Origin: Bryobacteraceae bacterium
Lineage (GTDB): Bacteria; Acidobacteriota; Terriglobia; Bryobacterales; Bryobacteraceae
NCBI GenBank assembly: GCA_029975915.1
Contig: JARKOC010000228.1
Coordinates: 1 to 64,000, forward strand
Reading direction: 5' to 3'
Length of the DNA: 64,000 bases
Position numbers and translations under genes: made by a program. Shown here in pieces: positions 8,033 to 41,460 of the stretch; the stretch's first letter is position 1, and each line of letters opens with the position of its first letter. The notes beneath the pieces were generated by a model. It saw nothing but the letters and a program-made list of their open reading frames with translations. It had not been told where the DNA came from and made no database searches.

Positions 8033-8851
8033 CTAACGGCGGAAGAAAGCCAGAGCCAGTACAAGAATACCAAAAATGATCCGGTATGCAACAAAAAAGC
8101 GGAGGCTGTGGCTCCGCAGGTAGCGGAGCAGGCCGCCGATGACGAGACAGCCTGAGAGTGCGCTGACTAAGATGCCGACGACGAAGGCGGGCAGTTCCTG
8201 GGACGGAACGCCGCCCGCTTCGTAGAGATCCTTGAAGGCAAGAAGGGCGGCGGCGCCGATGGCGGGCGTGGAGAGCAGGAAGGAGAAGCGGGCGGCGGCC
8301 TCCCGATCAATGTCCCGGAACAGACCGGCGGTGATGGTAATCCCGCTGCGCGAAGTGCCGGGCACGATGGCCAGCGCCTGGGCGAAGCCAATCGTCATGG
8401 CATCGAGGAAGCCGATCTGGCCAATACCCTTGACGCGCCGGCCGGCGTGTTCGGCCCAGAGCATGAGAAGCCCGACGCTGATCAGCATAATTCCGATCAC
8501 CCACGGCGAGCGGAAGGTGGTCTCCGCATCGTCCTTGAAGATGAACCCCAGGACTCCGATGGGAAGCGTTGCCGCGGCAATGGTCCAAAGCAGGCGCGGC
8601 GAAGCTTTCAGGCCCGCGTCCGCGCCAACTTTCAGGCCGAACGCCTGGCCGATGATCTGCATCCAGTCGCGAAAGAAATAGATCAGGACGGCGGCCAGGG
8701 TTCCGAAGTGAAGAGCGATGTCAAAGGTCAGCCCCTGATCCTTCCAGCCCAGCAGCCAAGGGGCCAAGGCGAGGTGGGCGGACGAAGAGATCGGTAAAAA
8801 TTCGGTGAATCCTTGGACGATGGCAAGGATCACGGCTTGGTGGATTGGCAT
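8033..8851 (-). CDS. uppP: Undecaprenyl-diphosphatase
   Basis: The 272-residue integral membrane enzyme of the BacA/UppP family dephosphorylates undecaprenyl pyrophosphate, regenerating the lipid carrier for peptidoglycan and other envelope glycans. The family signatures are present: QGFTEFLPISSSAHL near the N-terminus (the conserved Glu/Ser region) and IVPGTSRSGITI in the second repeat, the arginine-containing active-site loop. About eight hydrophobic helices span the protein and the length is normal for the family. Overexpression in other bacteria gives bacitracin tolerance. It is first in a two-gene unit with ftsK and divergent from pyk with 54 nt between the starts. Confidence 0.97.
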   Translation of the reverse strand: MPIHQAVILAIVQGFTEFLPISSSAHLALAPWLLGWKDQGLTFDIALHFGTLAAVLIYFFRDWMQIIGQAFGLKVGADAGLKASPRLLWTIAAATLPIGVLGFIFKDDAETTFRSPWVIGIMLISVGLLMLWAEHAGRRVKGIGQIGFLDAMTIGFAQALAIVPGTSRSGITITAGLFRDIDREAAARFSFLLSTPAIGAAALLAFKDLYEAGGVPSQELPAFVVGILVSALSGCLVIGGLLRYLRSHSLRFFVAYRIIFGILVLALAFFRR

Positions 8852-34015: not shown

Positions 34016-34093
34016 TGGTCGGGGCGAGTGGATTTGAACCACCGGCCTCCTGGTCCCGAACCAGGCGCTCTAACCAGGCTGAGCCACGCCCCG
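34016..34093 (-). tRNA. tRNA-Pro(CGG)
   Basis: A complete tRNA can be folded on the minus strand. The 7-bp acceptor stem is CGGGGCG with CGCCCCG. The D-stem is GCTC/GAGC. The anticodon stem CCTGG/CCAGG encloses the loop TTCGGGA with anticodon CGG. The variable loop is 5 nt and the T-stem GGTGG with loop TTCAAAT. The 3' CCA is encoded after the discriminator A. The anticodon reads CCG proline codons, which suit a high-GC genome. Confidence 0.96.
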
Positions 34094-34211: not shown

Positions 34212-35285
34212 ATGAAACGAAGGCGCCTGTTCACTCTTGCGGCCGCTCCAGCGGCCGTGTACCTGGCCCCGGCGGGATCGGCCTCCAAGGGCAAGATGGT
34301 GCTCGGCTGCCAGCGCGGGCCCACGTCCGATCAGATGCTCGACTACTTCAAGCGCCATGGTGTCGAGCACATCTGCGGCCACCCGGCGCCATCAGGCGAG
34401 AAGGGCTATTGGGACCGCGATGACCTGTCGCGACTCCGCGAACGTGTCGAAAGACACGGAATCCGGCTCATGATGATCGAGCCGGAACTGAGCTCCGCAT
34501 ACATCACCAAAGCCAAGCGGGCCAGCATCATGCTCGGTCAAAGCCCGGATCGCGACCGCCAAATCGAATACGTGTGTAAAACCATTCAAGCCGCCGCGGA
34601 AGCAGGCATTCCAACGCTCAAATACAATCTGACCGTCCTTGGCGTCGTCCGGACCGCGCCGGCGACAGGCCGCGGCGGCGTCAAGCTAAGCACCTGGAAA
34701 CTGAGCGAAGCCAAACAGGACCCGCCGCTCACCGAAGCAGGTCCGATGCCAGCCGAGACGATGTGGGAGCGGATCACCTACTTTCTCGACCGCGTCATCC
34801 CAGTGGCAAATGAGTACAAGATCCGCATGGCGTGTCATCCGCACGACCCCGGGATGCCGCCGTCTGGCTTCCGGGGCGTGGACCGGGTTCTCGGTACGGT
34901 GGAGGGTCTGCGCAAGTTCCTGGCAATCCGCGAGAGCCCGTATCACGGCCTGAACTTCTGCCAGGGCACGGTGGCGGAGATGCTCGCCGACCCTGGCAAG
35001 CAGATCTACAACGTCATCCGGGAGTTCGCTGGCAAGGGCAAGGTCTTCAACGTCCATTTCCGCAACATCCGCGGCCGCCGCGACGACTTCGTCGAGACCT
35101 TCCCCGACGATGGCGATATCGACATGTGGCGGGCGCTGCTGGAATACAAACGCGCCGGCTACACAGGCATGTTGATGCCGGACCACATGCCCACACACCC
35201 TGACGACCCGGGCGGTCGACAAGCGTTTGCCTATGGCTACGGCTATATCAAGGCAATGATCCAGGCCGCCGAAGCGGCCGGATAG
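34212..35285 (+). CDS. Tat-exported mannonate dehydratase-like (UxuA family/TIM-barrel) protein
   Basis: The 357-residue protein starts with a twin-arginine-like leader (KRRRLFTLAAAPAAVYLAP). The rest resembles the UxuA fold with metal-site regions MACHPHDPGMPP, GLNFCQGTVAEM, VFNVHFRNIRGRRDDF and GMLMPDHMPTHPDDPGG. Mannonate dehydratase turns D-mannonate into 2-keto-3-deoxygluconate in hexuronate breakdown. A Tat leader on such an enzyme is unusual, and the true role could be a related isomerase. ATG 34212 has an AGGA 11 nt upstream; GTG 34194 is the longer alternative. The gene is convergent with a DUF1080 gene. Confidence 0.78.
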   Translation: MKRRRLFTLAAAPAAVYLAPAGSASKGKMVLGCQRGPTSDQMLDYFKRHGVEHICGHPAPSGEKGYWDRDDLSRLRERVERHGIRLMMIEPELSSAYITKAKRASIMLGQSPDRDRQIEYVCKTIQAAAEAGIPTLKYNLTVLGVVRTAPATGRGGVKLSTWKLSEAKQDPPLTEAGPMPAETMWERITYFLDRVIPVANEYKIRMACHPHDPGMPPSGFRGVDRVLGTVEGLRKFLAIRESPYHGLNFCQGTVAEMLADPGKQIYNVIREFAGKGKVFNVHFRNIRGRRDDFVETFPDDGDIDMWRALLEYKRAGYTGMLMPDHMPTHPDDPGGRQAFAYGYGYIKAMIQAAEAAG

Positions 35286-35289
35286 AGGT

Positions 35290-35952
35290 TCACTTTTCCT
35301 TGATCTGCATGTTGCGGAACGCGATCTCGAAGCCTTCGGCCTCAAGACCCAGGAATCCGCGCGTGATGGTGCAGCCTTTCCATACACTGACGACTTTGCC
35401 GTTCAGCCAGAGCCGGAGCGTGTCGCCTTCGGCGTAAATTTCCATAACATTCCACTCGCCGGCCGGTTTCACTCTGTTTTCGATCATTTGGTCGCGAAGG
35501 TTGGTTCGGGCGAGTTTGCCGCCGGCGACATCCACACCAAACAGCCATGCTCCCGCCGGACCGGTCTGGGCCTGATGCCAGATCTCGCCCATCGGGGACA
35601 GCCGGATGCCGATGCCGCTGTTATAACGTGCATCGGCCTGAGGCAGCGGCGTGAACCGCCACTCGACGTGAAAGACAAAATCGCCGTACTCCTTGTCATA
35701 CTTCAACCACTCATGCCCGCCTTTGCCGTTGCAGATCAGTGTGCCGGCGGCTGTATCGACCGACCACTGCTGGCGCGGATCGACGCCAAGCGTCGGCGGG
35801 ATCGGGACCCGTGTCCAGCCTTTCAGATCCGGCGGCGGCATGAGGTTGGTCCAGCCCGCCGGTTCACGTTCGAGCAGGCTTTTCTCTTGGGCCGCCAGCA
35901 CCGGCGCGAGTACCAAGGCCGCGGTGGCGATAAGCGGAAGTCGGCGAAGCAT
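35290..35952 (-). CDS. Exported DUF1080 (3-keto-disaccharide hydrolase type) protein
   Basis: The 220-residue product has a signal peptide (LPLIATAALVLAPVLAAQ). One concanavalin-like DUF1080 domain follows: GWTNLMPPPDLKGWTRV, WSVDTAAGTLICNGKGGHEWLKYDKEYGDFVFHVEWRF, NSGIGIRLSP, GEWNVMEIYAEGDTLRLWLNGK and GFLGLEAEGFEIAFRNMQIK. DUF1080 proteins bind or split sugars and are abundant in acidobacteria and planctomycetes. Some cleave 3-ketoglycosides. Together with the convergent mannonate-dehydratase-like gene it suggests carbohydrate breakdown outside the inner membrane. ATG 35952 is the likely start. Confidence 0.9.
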   Translation of the reverse strand: MLRRLPLIATAALVLAPVLAAQEKSLLEREPAGWTNLMPPPDLKGWTRVPIPPTLGVDPRQQWSVDTAAGTLICNGKGGHEWLKYDKEYGDFVFHVEWRFTPLPQADARYNSGIGIRLSPMGEIWHQAQTGPAGAWLFGVDVAGGKLARTNLRDQMIENRVKPAGEWNVMEIYAEGDTLRLWLNGKVVSVWKGCTITRGFLGLEAEGFEIAFRNMQIKEK

Positions 35953-36133
35953 TTGGATGAGACTCCTGAAGATGGGTTGGCTGATGGGCCGTCCTGAGAA
36001 GTATCAAATGTTGGCGCGGCTGCGCAACCTCGACACTTCATGCGCTGGCGAGCCCGCCAATGATATTCCCATTAGTTCTTTTTATTTTACTCACCTGTTG
36101 CATTTCCAGGGCTTTTGTCTTACCCTGACAAAG
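35953..36133. other. Intergenic region upstream of the ilv leader
   Basis: This 181-bp stretch separates divergent units. It is less GC-rich than its surroundings, with an A/T-rich block at about 36060-36090 (TTCTTTTTATTTTAC), as expected for promoters facing both directions. No open reading frame of its own was found apart from the leader that follows. Confidence 0.5.
36098..36126 (+). promoter_or_regulatory. Candidate sigma-70 promoter of the ilv operon
   Basis: TTGCAT (36098-36103), a 17-nt spacer and TACCCT (36121-36126) match the -35 and -10 consensus at four positions each. The predicted start near 36133 would give a leader RNA containing the Ile/Val-rich peptide and the hairpin at 36275-36313. 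Assignment rests on spacing and position only. Confidence 0.35.
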
Positions 36134-36178
36134 ATGGCACTCGCGGCAAAAGCAATCCTGACAAAGAGGAACGCCGCA

Positions 36179-36247
36179 GTGGTGTCACTGAACTCTGTCG
36201 CTGTAGGTATTATTCGGATCGGAATCCGCCCGCACGGACCCGCCTGA
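36179..36247 (+). CDS. ilv operon leader peptide
   Basis: A 22-codon frame (GTG 36179 to TGA 36247) has an AGAGGA ribosome site eight nt upstream. It contains the run VVSLNSVAVGIIRIGIRPHG: four Val, four Ile and one Leu in 22 residues, clustered before the last six codons. A longer in-frame version starts at ATG 36134 (37 residues). It directly precedes ilvB, whose products make Val, Leu and Ile. Such branched-chain-rich peptides act as sensors in attenuators of enteric bacteria. The codons of the last GGA-CCC-GCC-TGA overlap the arm that can pair with the terminator (36239-36246 with 36284-36291). Confidence 0.72.
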   Translation: MVSLNSVAVGIIRIGIRPHGPA

Positions 36248-36313
36248 GTGAGCCGCAGCGCTTAACGCAAGATTAAAGGCCACCAGGCGGGGCAAAACCC
36301 GATGGTGGCCTTT
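36239..36313 (+). promoter_or_regulatory. Transcription attenuator upstream of ilvB
   Basis: AAAGGCCACCA (36275-36285) and its exact complement (36303-36313) form an 11-bp stem with a 17-nt loop, followed by CTCGC, giving a terminator-like hairpin with a short T-run. CCCGCCTG (36239-36246), at the leader stop codon, is perfectly complementary to CAGGCGGG (36284-36291) in the hairpin's ascending arm and loop, so the two pairings compete. Ribosomes reaching the stop would mask the first arm and favour termination. Stalling at the upstream Ile codons would free it. This is the classical attenuation logic, inferred here. Confidence 0.6.
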
Positions 36314-36355
36314 CTCGCATATGGGCGCAACCTGGAGCGAGAGATAGAACCAAGC

Positions 36356-36375: not shown

Positions 36376-36404
36376 ACCGAATGAGAGGAAGCGATCAGAG
36401 CCTT

Positions 36405-38135
36405 ATGTCGAACCTGATGAATGGCGCTCACATCCTGCTGGAATGCCTTGCCAGAGAGGGTGTCGAAGTGATCTTCGGCTATCCCGGCGGCGTCACGCTG
36501 CCGCTTTATGACGCGATCTACGATAACCCGATTCAGCATGTTCTCGTACGGCATGAGGAAAATGCCGCGTTTGCCGCCTCGGGTTACGCGAGGACGACGG
36601 GGAAGGTCGGCGTCTGCTGCGCAACATCCGGTCCGGGAGCGACCAACCTGACCACAGGGCTTGTGGACGCGATGATGGATTCGATTCCTGTCGTCGCCCT
36701 GACGGGACAGGTGACCTCGACTCTCATCGGCTCCGATGCCTTTCAGGAGGCCGATACCTTCGGGATCACTCGGCCATGTACCAAGCACAATTTCCTGGTG
36801 ACGCGGGCCGAGGAGATCGCCGACGTCGTCCATCAGGCCTTCCACATAGCAAGTTCCGGACGGCCAGGTCCTGTCCTGGTGGATATCACCAAGGACGCGT
36901 TACAGGGGCAGGCGCGATACGCCCCGGTCCATGAGATCCATTTGCCCGGCTACAAGGTTGTGACTGAAGGCCACGCCGGGCAGATCCGCCGCGCCGCCCA
37001 GATGATGTGGGAAGCCCGCCGGCCCTACGTTTACGCGGGCGGCGGCATCGTCTCCTCGGGGGCAAGCGAGGAATTGCGCGACTTGGTGGAAACGCTGGAT
37101 GTCCCTGCCGTTTGCACCTTGATGGGACTGGGCGCTCTGCCCGGCAACCATCCCAATTTCATTTCCATGCCCGGTATGCATGGTTCCTACGCAGCCAACA
37201 TGGGGATGTATGAGTGCGATCTGCTGATCGCGCTTGGCGTCCGGTTCGATGACCGTGTCACTGGCAGACTGAACGCCTTTGCTCCCCACGCCAAGGTCAT
37301 CCATGTCGACATCGACCCGGCCGAAATCGGCAAGAACCGCGCCGCCGATCTGCCTATCGTGGGTGATGCCAAAAAGGTGATCGGCAAGCTCGTCAAAACA
37401 TTGAGGGAACTGGCGCCCGAGATGCAAGAAGCTCACGCCGCCGACCGGCGCGCGTGGTGGAAGCGTGTCAGAGAGTGGAAGGCGGAGCATCCGCTGGAAC
37501 CGGTCTTCGGCGTCGATGAAATCAAACCTCAGCAATTGATGTATGAAATCGACAAGATCAGCCAGGGCCGGGCGATCGTCACTTCCGACGTCGGCCAGCA
37601 CCAGATGTGGGCGGCGCAGTTCATCCGGTTTAACGAGCCACGCCTCTGGGTGAACTCCGGCGGCTTGGGTTCGATGGGCTTCGGATTACCTTCTGCCATC
37701 GGCGCGCAGATGGCCAATCCGGACAAGCTGGTGTTCTGCGTCTGCGGCGACGGCGGCTTCCAGATGGCGCTTCCCGAACTGGCCACGCTGGCCAACTACG
37801 GACTGAACGTCAAAGTGGTGGTGATGAACAACGGCTACCTCGGCATGGTCAGGCAGTGGCAGGAATTGTTTTACAACAACCGCCTGTCCTCGGTTGAGAT
37901 CAACACATTCCCGAATGTCGAACATCTTGGAGCGGCGTACGGGATCAAGGCCAAGATCGTGCGTACGCCGATGGAACTCGAAAGGACGCTCAACGAGGCT
38001 GTGGCCGAACCGGGCCCTTATCTGATGGACGTCCGCGTGTCGTCGTTCGAAAACGTCTATCCGATGGTCCCGGCCGGCGCGGCGATCAACGAGATGGTGC
38101 TGGCGCCGCCGCAACCCGTGGCGGTGCCGAAATAG
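36405..38135 (+). CDS. ilvB: Acetolactate synthase large subunit
   Basis: The 576-residue thiamine-diphosphate enzyme condenses two pyruvates to acetolactate, or pyruvate with 2-oxobutyrate, the first common step of branched-chain synthesis. It shows the N-terminal EVIFGYPGGVTLPLYDA and the catalytic glutamate region VRHEENAAFAASGYAR, then FGITRPCTKHNF and the C-terminal ThDP site CVCGDGGFQMALPELATLANYGLNVKVVVMNNGYLGMVRQWQ. Met at 36405 is used; alternatives are ATG 36381, just after a small hairpin at 36356-36375, and ATG 36417. It is first structural gene of ilvB-ilvN-ilvC-cimA and is preceded by a leader with an attenuator-like structure. Confidence 0.97.
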   Translation: MSNLMNGAHILLECLAREGVEVIFGYPGGVTLPLYDAIYDNPIQHVLVRHEENAAFAASGYARTTGKVGVCCATSGPGATNLTTGLVDAMMDSIPVVALTGQVTSTLIGSDAFQEADTFGITRPCTKHNFLVTRAEEIADVVHQAFHIASSGRPGPVLVDITKDALQGQARYAPVHEIHLPGYKVVTEGHAGQIRRAAQMMWEARRPYVYAGGGIVSSGASEELRDLVETLDVPAVCTLMGLGALPGNHPNFISMPGMHGSYAANMGMYECDLLIALGVRFDDRVTGRLNAFAPHAKVIHVDIDPAEIGKNRAADLPIVGDAKKVIGKLVKTLRELAPEMQEAHAADRRAWWKRVREWKAEHPLEPVFGVDEIKPQQLMYEIDKISQGRAIVTSDVGQHQMWAAQFIRFNEPRLWVNSGGLGSMGFGLPSAIGAQMANPDKLVFCVCGDGGFQMALPELATLANYGLNVKVVVMNNGYLGMVRQWQELFYNNRLSSVEINTFPNVEHLGAAYGIKAKIVRTPMELERTLNEAVAEPGPYLMDVRVSSFENVYPMVPAGAAINEMVLAPPQPVAVPK

Positions 38136-38172
38136 GAATGATGGTCTCGATCCCTGGAGTTCACGAATTACC

Positions 38173-38709
38173 ATGCTCATGACAATCTCATTGCTAATGG
38201 AGAACCGGCCTGGCGCTCTGATGCGCGTGACCGGCCTGCTGACTCAGCGAGGCTACAATATCGAGTCGCTCACCGTCGCCCGAACGCTGGACCCAACCCT
38301 TTCGCGGATGACCATCATCGTCGACGTCGAGCCGAAGCTGCGGGCGCTGGTGATCAAACAGATGAACCGGCTGGTCAACGTGCTGCAAGCCACGGACCTT
38401 ACTGAAGTGCAGTCCGTGATAAGAGAACTGGTTCTGTTAAGGGTGCGGGCCCCAATGGAAAGCAGGACGGCGATTCTGAAGGAGGCCGAGATCTTCACCG
38501 CTCGCGTGGTGGATTCCTCGCTTGAAGGCTTCGTGCTTGAGGCCACGGGCGAGAGTGAGAAATTAAGTGAGTTCATCGCCGTGATGGGCTCGTATGGAGA
38601 GATTGAGGTGACGCGTTCGGGCGGCGTCGCCGTGTCGCTGGAAGCGAAGAAATTGCGGCTCGCGCCGCCTGTGCCCAAATCCCAAACAGAAACCGTTGAA
38701 TCGAGATAA
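38173..38709 (+). CDS. ilvN: Acetolactate synthase small (regulatory) subunit
   Basis: The 178-residue protein is the ACT-domain regulatory subunit that activates IlvB and mediates feedback inhibition by valine. The first ACT domain reads TISLLMENRPGALMRVTGLLTQRGYNIESLTVART with the usual MTIIVD strand. A linker contains RELVLLRVRAP, and the C-terminal ALS_ss domain shows FTARVVDSSLEGFVLEATGESEKLSEFIAVM. The length fits a full IlvH/IlvN-type subunit. It starts 37 nt after ilvB. The gene ends 15 nt before ilvC. Confidence 0.96.
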   Translation: MLMTISLLMENRPGALMRVTGLLTQRGYNIESLTVARTLDPTLSRMTIIVDVEPKLRALVIKQMNRLVNVLQATDLTEVQSVIRELVLLRVRAPMESRTAILKEAEIFTARVVDSSLEGFVLEATGESEKLSEFIAVMGSYGEIEVTRSGGVAVSLEAKKLRLAPPVPKSQTETVESR

Positions 38710-39747
<1,038 letters not shown>

Positions 39748-39765
39748 CTCCCAAGGGATTGCCGC

Positions 39766-39815
39766 AATGCCGGGGCCGGTCCGGGCGTTACCATCGCCGG
39801 CTGGCCCCAGGCATT
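39766..39815 (+). promoter_or_regulatory. Strong intercistronic hairpin between ilvC and cimA
   Basis: AATGCCGGGGCC (39766-39777) pairs with GGCCCCAGGCATT (39803-39815), giving a 12-bp stem with one bulged A. It lies between the ilvC stop and the cimA ribosome site (AAAGGAAG). No T-run follows, so it may be an mRNA-stability or processing element rather than a terminator. The ilvC-cimA gap of 90 nt is the longest within this operon. Confidence 0.5.
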
Positions 39816-39837
39816 TGGAAATGAAAGGAAGTCTGAC

Positions 39838-41460
39838 ATGAGGATCTGGACATTCGATACGACTCTCCGTGACGGCACACAGGGCGCGGCCATCTCCTTC
39901 TCGGTGGAAGACAAGATCGCCATCGCTCAGAAGCTGGACGATCTCGGAATCGACTACATCGAGGGCGGCTGGCCCATGTCCAATCCCAAGGACAAGGAGT
40001 TTTTCGCCCGCGCCCGCGATCTGAAATTCAAGCACGCCAAATTGACGGCCTTCGGTTCGACTCGGTTCGCCAGGAACCCGGTTGAGAAGGACGCCAACAC
40101 CCTGGCGCTGCTCGAGGCCGGCACGCCCGCAATCTCGATCTTCGGCAAGACCTGGGACCTGCACGCCACTCAGGTCCTCGGCGTTTCGCTCGAGCAGAAT
40201 CTCGAACTGATCAGCGACTCGGTCGGCTTCCTGAAGTCTCATGGGCGCGAAGTGATCTATGACGCCGAGCATTTCTTCGATGGCTATATCGCCAACCCGG
40301 ACTACGCGCTCAAAACCCTGGACGCCGCGGCCACGGCCGGCGCCGACGTGCTTTGCCTGTGCGACACCAACGGCGGGACCATCACGGGACGGCTGTCCGA
40401 AATTGTCGCCGAGGTCCGCAAGCGGTTTGATGGCACGCTCGGCATCCACTGCCATAACGATTGCGACATCGCCAACGCCAACACCATCGCCGCCGTCGAA
40501 CAAGGCGTCACTCATGTCCAAGGCTGCTTCAATGGTTACGGCGAACGTTGCGGCAACGCCAATCTCGTTTCGGTTATCGCCATCCTCGAAGCCAAATTGG
40601 GGCACACCCTCATTGGCAAGGAGAAACTCCGCAGCCTGACCGGCGTGGCCCATTACATCGCCGAGTTGGCCAACCTGCCGCTTGCGCAGAATCAGCCGTT
40701 CGTGGGCAGGGCCGCGTTCGCGCACAAGGGCGGCGTCCACGTCGCGGCGGTTTTGAAGACGGCGGCCAGCTATGAGCACATGGATCCGGCCGTGCTCGGC
40801 AACCGCCAGCAAGTGCTGCTTTCGGACTTGAGCGGCCGCGGAAACGTCGTCTACAAGCTTAAACAGCACGGGCTGGAAGAGAAACTCGACGACGCCGCGC
40901 GTAGAGATCTGCTCGATCGCATCAAGCATCTCGAATATGAAGGCTACGAACTCGAAGCCGCCGAGGGAACCTTCGAACTGCTGGTCCGCGACGCGCTGAC
41001 GCCTGGCAAGAAGTTCTTTGAGGTCATCTCCTACGAAACGCAATCGCGCAAGATCGATGGCCGCGACGCCATCACTTCGGCAACCGTCATTCTGCGCGCC
41101 GGCGACGAGATCCATTCGGCGCACGCCACCGGCGACGGCCCGGTGAATGCGCTCGATGTCTGCTTCCGCCAGTGCCTGGCCACCGTTTACCCGCAGATCA
41201 AGGAGGTCCGGCTGACCGACTACAAGGTCCGCGTGATCGACTCCGGTAAGGGCACCGCCGCCAAGGTCCGCGTGCTGGTCGGCTGGTCGGATCACAAGCG
41301 TTCGTGGGCAACCGTCGGCGTGTCGACCAACATCATAGACGCCTCCTGGCGCGCGCTCGTCGATGCCATCCAACTTGAGTTGATGCGCCTGTCTGACGCC
41401 GACGACCGGATTGAAAAGGCCGTTGAGGATTTCTGCATCGGCGTAGAGCCGGAACAATGA
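39838..41460 (+). CDS. cimA: (R)-citramalate synthase
   Basis: The 540-residue enzyme condenses pyruvate and acetyl-CoA to citramalate, opening the threonine-independent route to isoleucine. The N-terminal DRE-TIM barrel has FDTTLRDGTQGAAISFSVEDK, YIEGGWP, LCLCDTNGGT, GIHCHNDCDIANANT and GCFNGYGERCGNANL. A linker and C-terminal LeuA-type regulatory domain (about 410-540, KFFEVISYETQSR...SADATV-style strands) would bind isoleucine. The family also includes 2-isopropylmalate and homocitrate synthases. The GGWP...SNPKD and TLRDG-T-Q forms, and location in the ilv operon, support citramalate synthase. The next gene overlaps its stop (ATGA). Confidence 0.93.
   Translation: MRIWTFDTTLRDGTQGAAISFSVEDKIAIAQKLDDLGIDYIEGGWPMSNPKDKEFFARARDLKFKHAKLTAFGSTRFARNPVEKDANTLALLEAGTPAISIFGKTWDLHATQVLGVSLEQNLELISDSVGFLKSHGREVIYDAEHFFDGYIANPDYALKTLDAAATAGADVLCLCDTNGGTITGRLSEIVAEVRKRFDGTLGIHCHNDCDIANANTIAAVEQGVTHVQGCFNGYGERCGNANLVSVIAILEAKLGHTLIGKEKLRSLTGVAHYIAELANLPLAQNQPFVGRAAFAHKGGVHVAAVLKTAASYEHMDPAVLGNRQQVLLSDLSGRGNVVYKLKQHGLEEKLDDAARRDLLDRIKHLEYEGYELEAAEGTFELLVRDALTPGKKFFEVISYETQSRKIDGRDAITSATVILRAGDEIHSAHATGDGPVNALDVCFRQCLATVYPQIKEVRLTDYKVRVIDSGKGTAAKVRVLVGWSDHKRSWATVGVSTNIIDASWRALVDAIQLELMRLSDADDRIEKAVEDFCIGVEPEQ

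Follow-up and report, generated by a model that had tools for sequence, protein, structure and literature searches.

A probable ribosome-mediated attenuator upstream of the ilvB-ilvH-ilvC-cimA operon of a Bryobacteraceae bacterium

The ilvB-ilvH-ilvC-cimA operon (36405-41460 of the window, the whole 64,000-nt stretch of contig JARKOC010000228.1 that was analysed) is preceded by a leader reading frame rich in branched-chain codons, a terminator-like hairpin, and a segment at the end of the frame whose pairing with the hairpin is mutually exclusive with the hairpin itself, and these parts are conserved in close relatives. We are highly confident that together they form a ribosome-mediated transcription attenuator that responds to the charging of Ile-tRNA and Val-tRNA. 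In the mechanism put forward here, RNA polymerase would start at about 36134 and a ribosome would load on the 5'-terminal ATG, so that the transcript would be leaderless. A shortage of charged Ile-tRNA (in relatives, of charged Val-tRNA too) would make the ribosome wait at codons 36209-36226, covering strand 1 and leaving 36239-36254 free to pair with 36278-36291; the terminator at 36275-36313 would then not form in time and ilvB would be transcribed. When amino acids are plentiful, the ribosome would reach the stop codon and cover strand 2, allowing the terminator to fold and transcription to end.

The ilvB leader and its operon

The coordinates of the leader and of the operon genes are collected in Table 1. 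The initial annotation had described a frame beginning at GTG 36179 and specifying 22 codons (VVSLNSVAVGIIRIGIRPHGPA), nine of them for Ile, Leu, or Val, that ends 27 nt before an 11-bp hairpin, and these coordinates check, with the stop TGA at 36245-36247. The frame is, in addition, open upstream as far as ATG 36134, 7 nt past the -10-like TACCCT. Of the 91 family members, 89 carry the promoter motif TTGCAT-N16-18-TANNNT ahead of ilvB; none of the 60 regions from other Acidobacteriota and none of the 74 comparison loci has it, and 2 of 455 shuffles do. A simple promoter scan, which wants TTGACA/TATAAT-like hexamers, called none here.

Table 1. Positions of the leader elements and operon genes in the window.
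Feature	Position	Strand	Remarks
Predicted promoter	36098-36126	+	TTGCAT, 17-nt spacer, TACCCT; from motif search; transcription start putative
Leader ORF	36134-36247	+	37 codons, MALAAKAILTKRNAAVVSLNSVAVGIIRIGIRPHGPA, then TGA
Possible anti-antiterminator (1:2) hairpin	36206-36254	+	-17.0 kcal/mol; 5' strand holds Ile codons 36209-36214
Control region	36209-36226	+	Ile codons ATT 36209, ATT 36212, ATC 36218, ATC 36224
Antiterminator 5' strand (strand 2)	36239-36254	+	Last two sense codons, stop, next seven bases
Terminator hairpin (3:4)	36275-36313	+	11-bp outer stem; -27.3 kcal/mol
Antiterminator 3' strand (strand 3)	36278-36291	+	Overlaps terminator 5' arm and loop
Terminator tail	36311-36316	+	TTTCTC; TTTCTCGC, 4 T in 8 nt after stem core
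ilvB, acetolactate synthase large subunit	36405-38135	+	TIGR00118; start set at ATG 36405
ilvH, acetolactate synthase small subunit	38173-38709	+	
ilvC, ketol-acid reductoisomerase	38725-39747	+	
cimA, citramalate synthase	39838-41460	+	TIGR00977, 680.9 bits (cut-off 450)

A second in-frame ATG for ilvB lies at 36381. Among the listed matches the closest IlvB proteins, at 89% identity, come from two genomes (G120 and G015), and those of the nearest named relatives, Bryobacterales and Acidobacteria MAGs, show 70-75% identity. To the left of the leader the gene-sized frame 35290-35952 runs on the minus strand, beginning at 35952, and the plus-strand frame that precedes it stops at 35285, so the hairpin does not resemble a neighbour's 3' end. 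The window's ilv operon contains cimA, whose route to isoleucine is threonine-free. In 25 of the 26 genomes with both places listed, a weak LeuA-model match occupies the corresponding position and shares its contig and strand with ilvB. A tRNA gene on the minus strand (34019-34093) is the sole Rfam match over threshold in the window.

Alternative pairings and the proposed switch

The tail of the leader frame, CCCGCCTG at 36239-36246, is perfectly complementary to CAGGCGGG at 36284-36291, as had first been reported for an 8-base arm, but the full antiterminator is longer: the pairing continues through 36248-36250/36281-36283 and 36252-36254/36278-36280 to give 14 bp with two bulged A residues. 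Its predicted energy is -26.6 kcal/mol (z -4.58, with 0 of 200 shuffles as good), in folds of eight segments of which six ended at 36306, within the 3' arm, or lacked the whole terminator. The terminator energy in Table 1 is from the folds of the footprint model described below. The candidate 1:2 hairpin has modest statistics (z -2.19 for 36200-36262), and the folding predictions are suggestive only as to its existence.

A footprint model of the window, in which the first free base was assumed to lie 15 nt from the A-site codon, predicts that a ribosome with its A site at Ile 36209, 36212, 36218, or 36224 leaves 36239 onward free, and that the antiterminator forms with a probability of 0.96-1.00 as long as the transcript has not passed 36309. 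At Arg 36227 the antiterminator would persist to 36305 and be lost by 36309, and none is predicted with the A site at His 36233 or at any of the codons tested from there through the stop. The modelled switch point would lie just after the last Ile codon, in agreement with the earlier suggestion that a ribosome stalled at Ile frees the arm and one at the stop codon covers it. Once the hairpin is complete (36313), the terminator is predicted to win at equilibrium with a probability of 0.96-1.00, even behind an Ile-stalled ribosome, so that the switch must be kinetic and decided with the polymerase in the 3' arm. In other attenuators, too, the decision is made during synthesis of this arm. Untranslated RNA is predicted to fold into the 1:2 hairpin and the terminator, and hence the default state would be off.

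The tail of the terminator had been flagged from the outset as weak, and it is. At least 5 T in 8 nt are found in 80 of 88 tails; the window is among the eight with fewer, a weak T-run that it has in common with its two closest relatives, and a better one is found in most relatives. A simple consensus scan did not call the plus-strand terminator because its tail has too few T, and called the same hairpin on the minus strand, in a scan whose match count was no higher than in shuffles. The distance of 27 nt from leader stop to hairpin in the window compares with 19-31 nt in nearly all relatives.

Conservation, covariation, and control codons

An IlvB search matched 199 of 200 genomes, and the upstream regions of the best 90 places (30 loci and 60 regions) were taken, the sample thus lying above the lower-scoring family matches (109 of the 199 genomes). 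Over 500 nt upstream of the IlvB match, a strict detector looked for three things together: a hairpin of 7 bp or longer with 4 or more T in 8; a reading frame of no fewer than 18 open codons, with eight or more I/L/V among the last 22 and a stop that starts 5-48 nt ahead of this hairpin; and 6 bp or more of pairing between the stop-codon region and the 5' half of the hairpin. It fired in 80 of 91 upstream regions (the window and its 90 relatives) and in 0 of 273 dinucleotide shuffles. By inspection, leader and hairpin are present in 88 of 91, including eight that fall below a threshold of the detector (L113, L137, L139, L144, L152, L156, L158, and L160). The other three, L122, L129, and L135, keep the TTGCAT promoter and have neither leader nor terminator upstream of ilvB, and their promoter stands 93-100 nt from the IlvB match vs a median of 284; they are natural losses that serve as deletion controls. 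The element is also found in the named MAG genomes at L119 and L120.

Across both strands of 90 loci (746,164 bases; L089-L118 around ilvB and L241-L300 around genes of leuA and trpE type) the strict detector fired 30 times, of which 29 were upstream of ilvB and the remaining one was the ilvB terminator on the opposite strand. On both strands of the window it fired twice, at the ilvB leader and near 8035, the latter a hydrophobic minus-strand frame stopping before a hairpin that is most likely the end of an ordinary membrane-protein gene. A looser detector dropped the antiterminator requirement; because it inspected the last 20 codons only, it misses the window along with the two relatives closest to it. 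It fired in 81 of 91 family regions, 11 of 60 from other Acidobacteriota, and 0 of 74 comparison loci, with 2/273, 1/180, and 0/222 for the respective shuffles.

Covariation was examined in an alignment of 87 leaders (the 91 without L122, L129, L135, and L171, the last omitted although it carries the element, and with L109 and L155 anchored by hand), which a 90% identity reduction brought to 76. The strongest covariation is in the terminator stem (columns 106-136: CG 47, TA 20, TG 7, GC 2), and the antiterminator column pair 58-114 has CG 72, TA 3, and TG 1. Several high-ranking pairs lie outside any helix, such as 27-70, fourth in rank, so relatedness inflates these values. Two subgroups do not align in register, and an alignment-free co-evolution test was therefore run, in which each leader's tail was paired with its own hairpin or with swapped ones. 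The mean pairing score was 20.51 for own vs 18.31 +/- 0.23 for swapped hairpins (maximum 18.99 in 200 permutations, n=76); own exceeded swapped in 3116 single comparisons and fell below it in 1122, and 71 of the 76 leaders pair over at least 6 bp. Tail/hairpin pairs in relatives include TTCGCCTG/CAGGCGAA, CCTCGCCTG/TGGGCGAGG, CGCCGCC/GGCGGCG, and CCCGTCTG/CGGACGGG. Leader tail and hairpin co-vary, and antiterminator and terminator are mutually exclusive.

The branched-chain codons are kept by position. Across the 87 leaders I/L/V occupies codon -9 in 90%, -7 in 86%, and -5 in 85%, and codons -1 to -4 in only 3-9%. Within the family, Val at -5 is GTA in 61 of 64 cases and Val at -7 is GTC in 50 of 70, and these opposite synonymous preferences at codons two apart suggest base-level selection besides coding. 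In the last 22 leader codons GTA makes up 217 of 436 Val codons and ATT 208 of 317 Ile codons, compared with 4 of 140 and 11 of 93 in the window's four operon genes, a contrast between the leaders of a family and the genes of one genome. According to the available text of PMC1183508, theory on control-codon choice holds that selective charging of isoacceptors matters, not rarity per se. With a 15-nt footprint, Val at codon -5 (64 of 87 leaders) would cover strand 2, and some conserved branched-chain codons therefore misfit the simple model. Comparison of leaders from ilvB relatives, which had been suggested with the initial annotation as a check on its reading of classical ilv attenuation logic, thus finds covarying stems and retains the frame, the hairpin, the alternative pairing, and the Ile/Val codons, so that the loss of frame and stem named there as grounds for abandoning the reading is not what the relatives display.

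Beyond the family, a phylum search matched 146 of 199 genomes, and 60 upstream regions from 59 genomes were taken, skipping the family members G120 and G028. The strict detector fired in only 8 of these 60 vs 0 of 180 shuffles; by eye six are convincing (L182, L187, L188, L219, L226, and L228) and two doubtful (L198 and L204), and the looser detector adds L181, L190, and L195. A few of these other Acidobacteriota have the same stop-codon pairing logic in different sequences, a hint of a possible repeated origin. One genome (G212) has two ilvB-type genes (L182 and L187), and a separate Ile/Val-rich leader and hairpin stands before each. Neither detector fired in the 74 comparison loci, which are nearly all from other phyla (L059 is an Acidobacteria MAG) and are what is left of 80 after removal of L001-L003 (family) and L009, L037, and L075 (too little upstream); in the Bryobacterales MAG L002 the element was not found. 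A matching leader-attenuator search upstream of 30 leuA-type loci gave none. Upstream of 30 trpE-type loci it gave two weak Trp matches (L274 and L298), about 0.7-0.8 kb before the scanned end, which we judged spurious. This control is imperfect: L247 and L270 are without the gene's 5' side, L268 and L269 are citramalate-synthase-type genes within the ilv operon, and the matches for trpE start within the gene.

Rival readings and relation to known attenuators

The same attenuator could instead be translated from GTG 36179, giving the 22-residue peptide behind an ordinary 5' untranslated region. Its AGAGGA, as first annotated, does lie 8 nt before the GTG, the close relative L089 retains AGGA and a nearby GTG, five relatives (L144, L152, L156, L158, and L160) have their ATG 58-63 nt after the -10, and 15 of the 85 leaders with a scored promoter have no promoter-near start or only a later one. 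However, the first in-frame ATG or GTG lies 6-7 nt after the -10 in 42 of the 85 and 8-19 nt after it in 28 (later in nine, absent within reach in six), no out-of-frame ATG or GTG occurs at 6-7 nt in these leaders, and over offsets 3-24 in-frame starts outnumber out-of-frame starts by 83 to 9. In-frame starts thus cluster 6-7 nt past the -10, where transcription should begin, and we regard the leaderless ATG 36134 as the more likely start, with transcription beginning at about the same position, and a start at the GTG as unlikely. L089 and L090, the two closest relatives, are without indels from ATG 36134 onward. The five relatives with distant starts have short Leu/Val-rich leaders of about 19 codons with no Ile, and perhaps sense leucine or valine instead.

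Readings in which the ribosome is not the sensor appear less probable still. That stable alternative structures form without ribosomes would suit a terminator switched by a ligand or a protein (riboswitch, T-box, or RNA-binding protein) with the short frame incidental, yet the leader is kept as a reading frame, with its Ile/Val positions, its promoter-near in-frame starts, and its stop inside strand 2. Nor is there a relevant Rfam match in the leader region: at E up to 10 it has just two unrelated matches, far below gathering scores, with no covariance-model match to a T-box, ilvB-OMG, ppGpp riboswitch, or other RNA family as far as these are part of Rfam, and 20 of the 60 regions from other Acidobacteriota likewise gave no relevant covariance-model match. 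We consider it just as improbable that the peptide is a small protein acting in trans or that the hairpin is a constitutive premature terminator trimming expression without sensing. The window's weak T-run, 4 T in 8 nt, could be taken to favour either, but beyond the Ile/Val positions and the final two residues the peptide sequence differs widely between leaders, and what is kept is codon type, hairpin distance, and tail-hairpin pairing. Ribosome-mediated attenuation is hence our preferred reading. A broader proposal, which we hold possible and put somewhat short of an even chance, is that the element is a lineage-wide leaderless attenuator, in Acidobacteriota, of a citramalate-route operon in which control codons are chosen by position (GTA at -5, GTC at -7, ATT at -9) against operon usage, the same bases serving both codon speed and RNA pairing.

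The mechanism proposed for the window is that of leader attenuation at ilvBN and ilvGMEDA of E. coli. These operons serve the same pathway and are listed as attenuated in the available part of PMC1183508. Unlike them, the window's operon includes cimA and its leader appears leaderless; the comparison is one of description. The ilvBNC attenuator of Corynebacterium glutamicum (ilvB-II motif), in the portions of PMC11857589 and PMC10272879 available, resembles the window in its branched-chain-rich leader before ilvB, in the leaderless initiation discussed for that leader (PMC11857589), and in a three-hairpin terminator/antiterminator/anti-antiterminator model with overlapping strands, the last of these hairpins being a candidate in the window. 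It belongs to another phylum, and its leader is usually 15-17 codons, whereas reading from the promoter-near start gives most leaders of the present family about 30-45. It too is compared by description; the window leader has no Rfam match. Actinobacterial ilvB leaders are described in the accessible text of Seliverstov et al. 2005 (PMC1262725) as short ORFs with Ile/Val/Leu codons that lie, together with terminators, upstream of ilvB, as in the window.

The initial annotation had called this logic little described outside Proteobacteria and Actinobacteria, which is too narrow: the parts of the literature at hand also report amino-acid leader attenuators in Firmicutes (PMC5794164, PMC5864092, PMC2965389) and suggest ilvB-linked uORFs both in Leptospira and, for the ilvB-OMG motif, across a range of phyla (PMC10272879). 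For Acidobacteria, the 2010 survey had almost no predicted attenuator with an assigned function in its available text (PMC2965389). Among the matches listed for ilvB or amino-acid attenuation and leader peptides in Acidobacteria, Acidobacteriota, or Solibacter, a set covering few subscription papers, the element is not described as judged by titles and abstract openings. A broad attenuation survey by Lopatovskaya et al. in 2010 may include it. The mechanism is of a known kind, here in Acidobacteriota and in a form that is probably leaderless.

The Acidobacteriota element has a clear sensor, switch, and target; almost every one of the 90 closest relatives examined carries it, and the three natural losses that keep the promoter offer a useful comparison. 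Attenuation thereby becomes testable in a large soil phylum, and in a leaderless case where ribosome loading and the start of transcription would nearly coincide.
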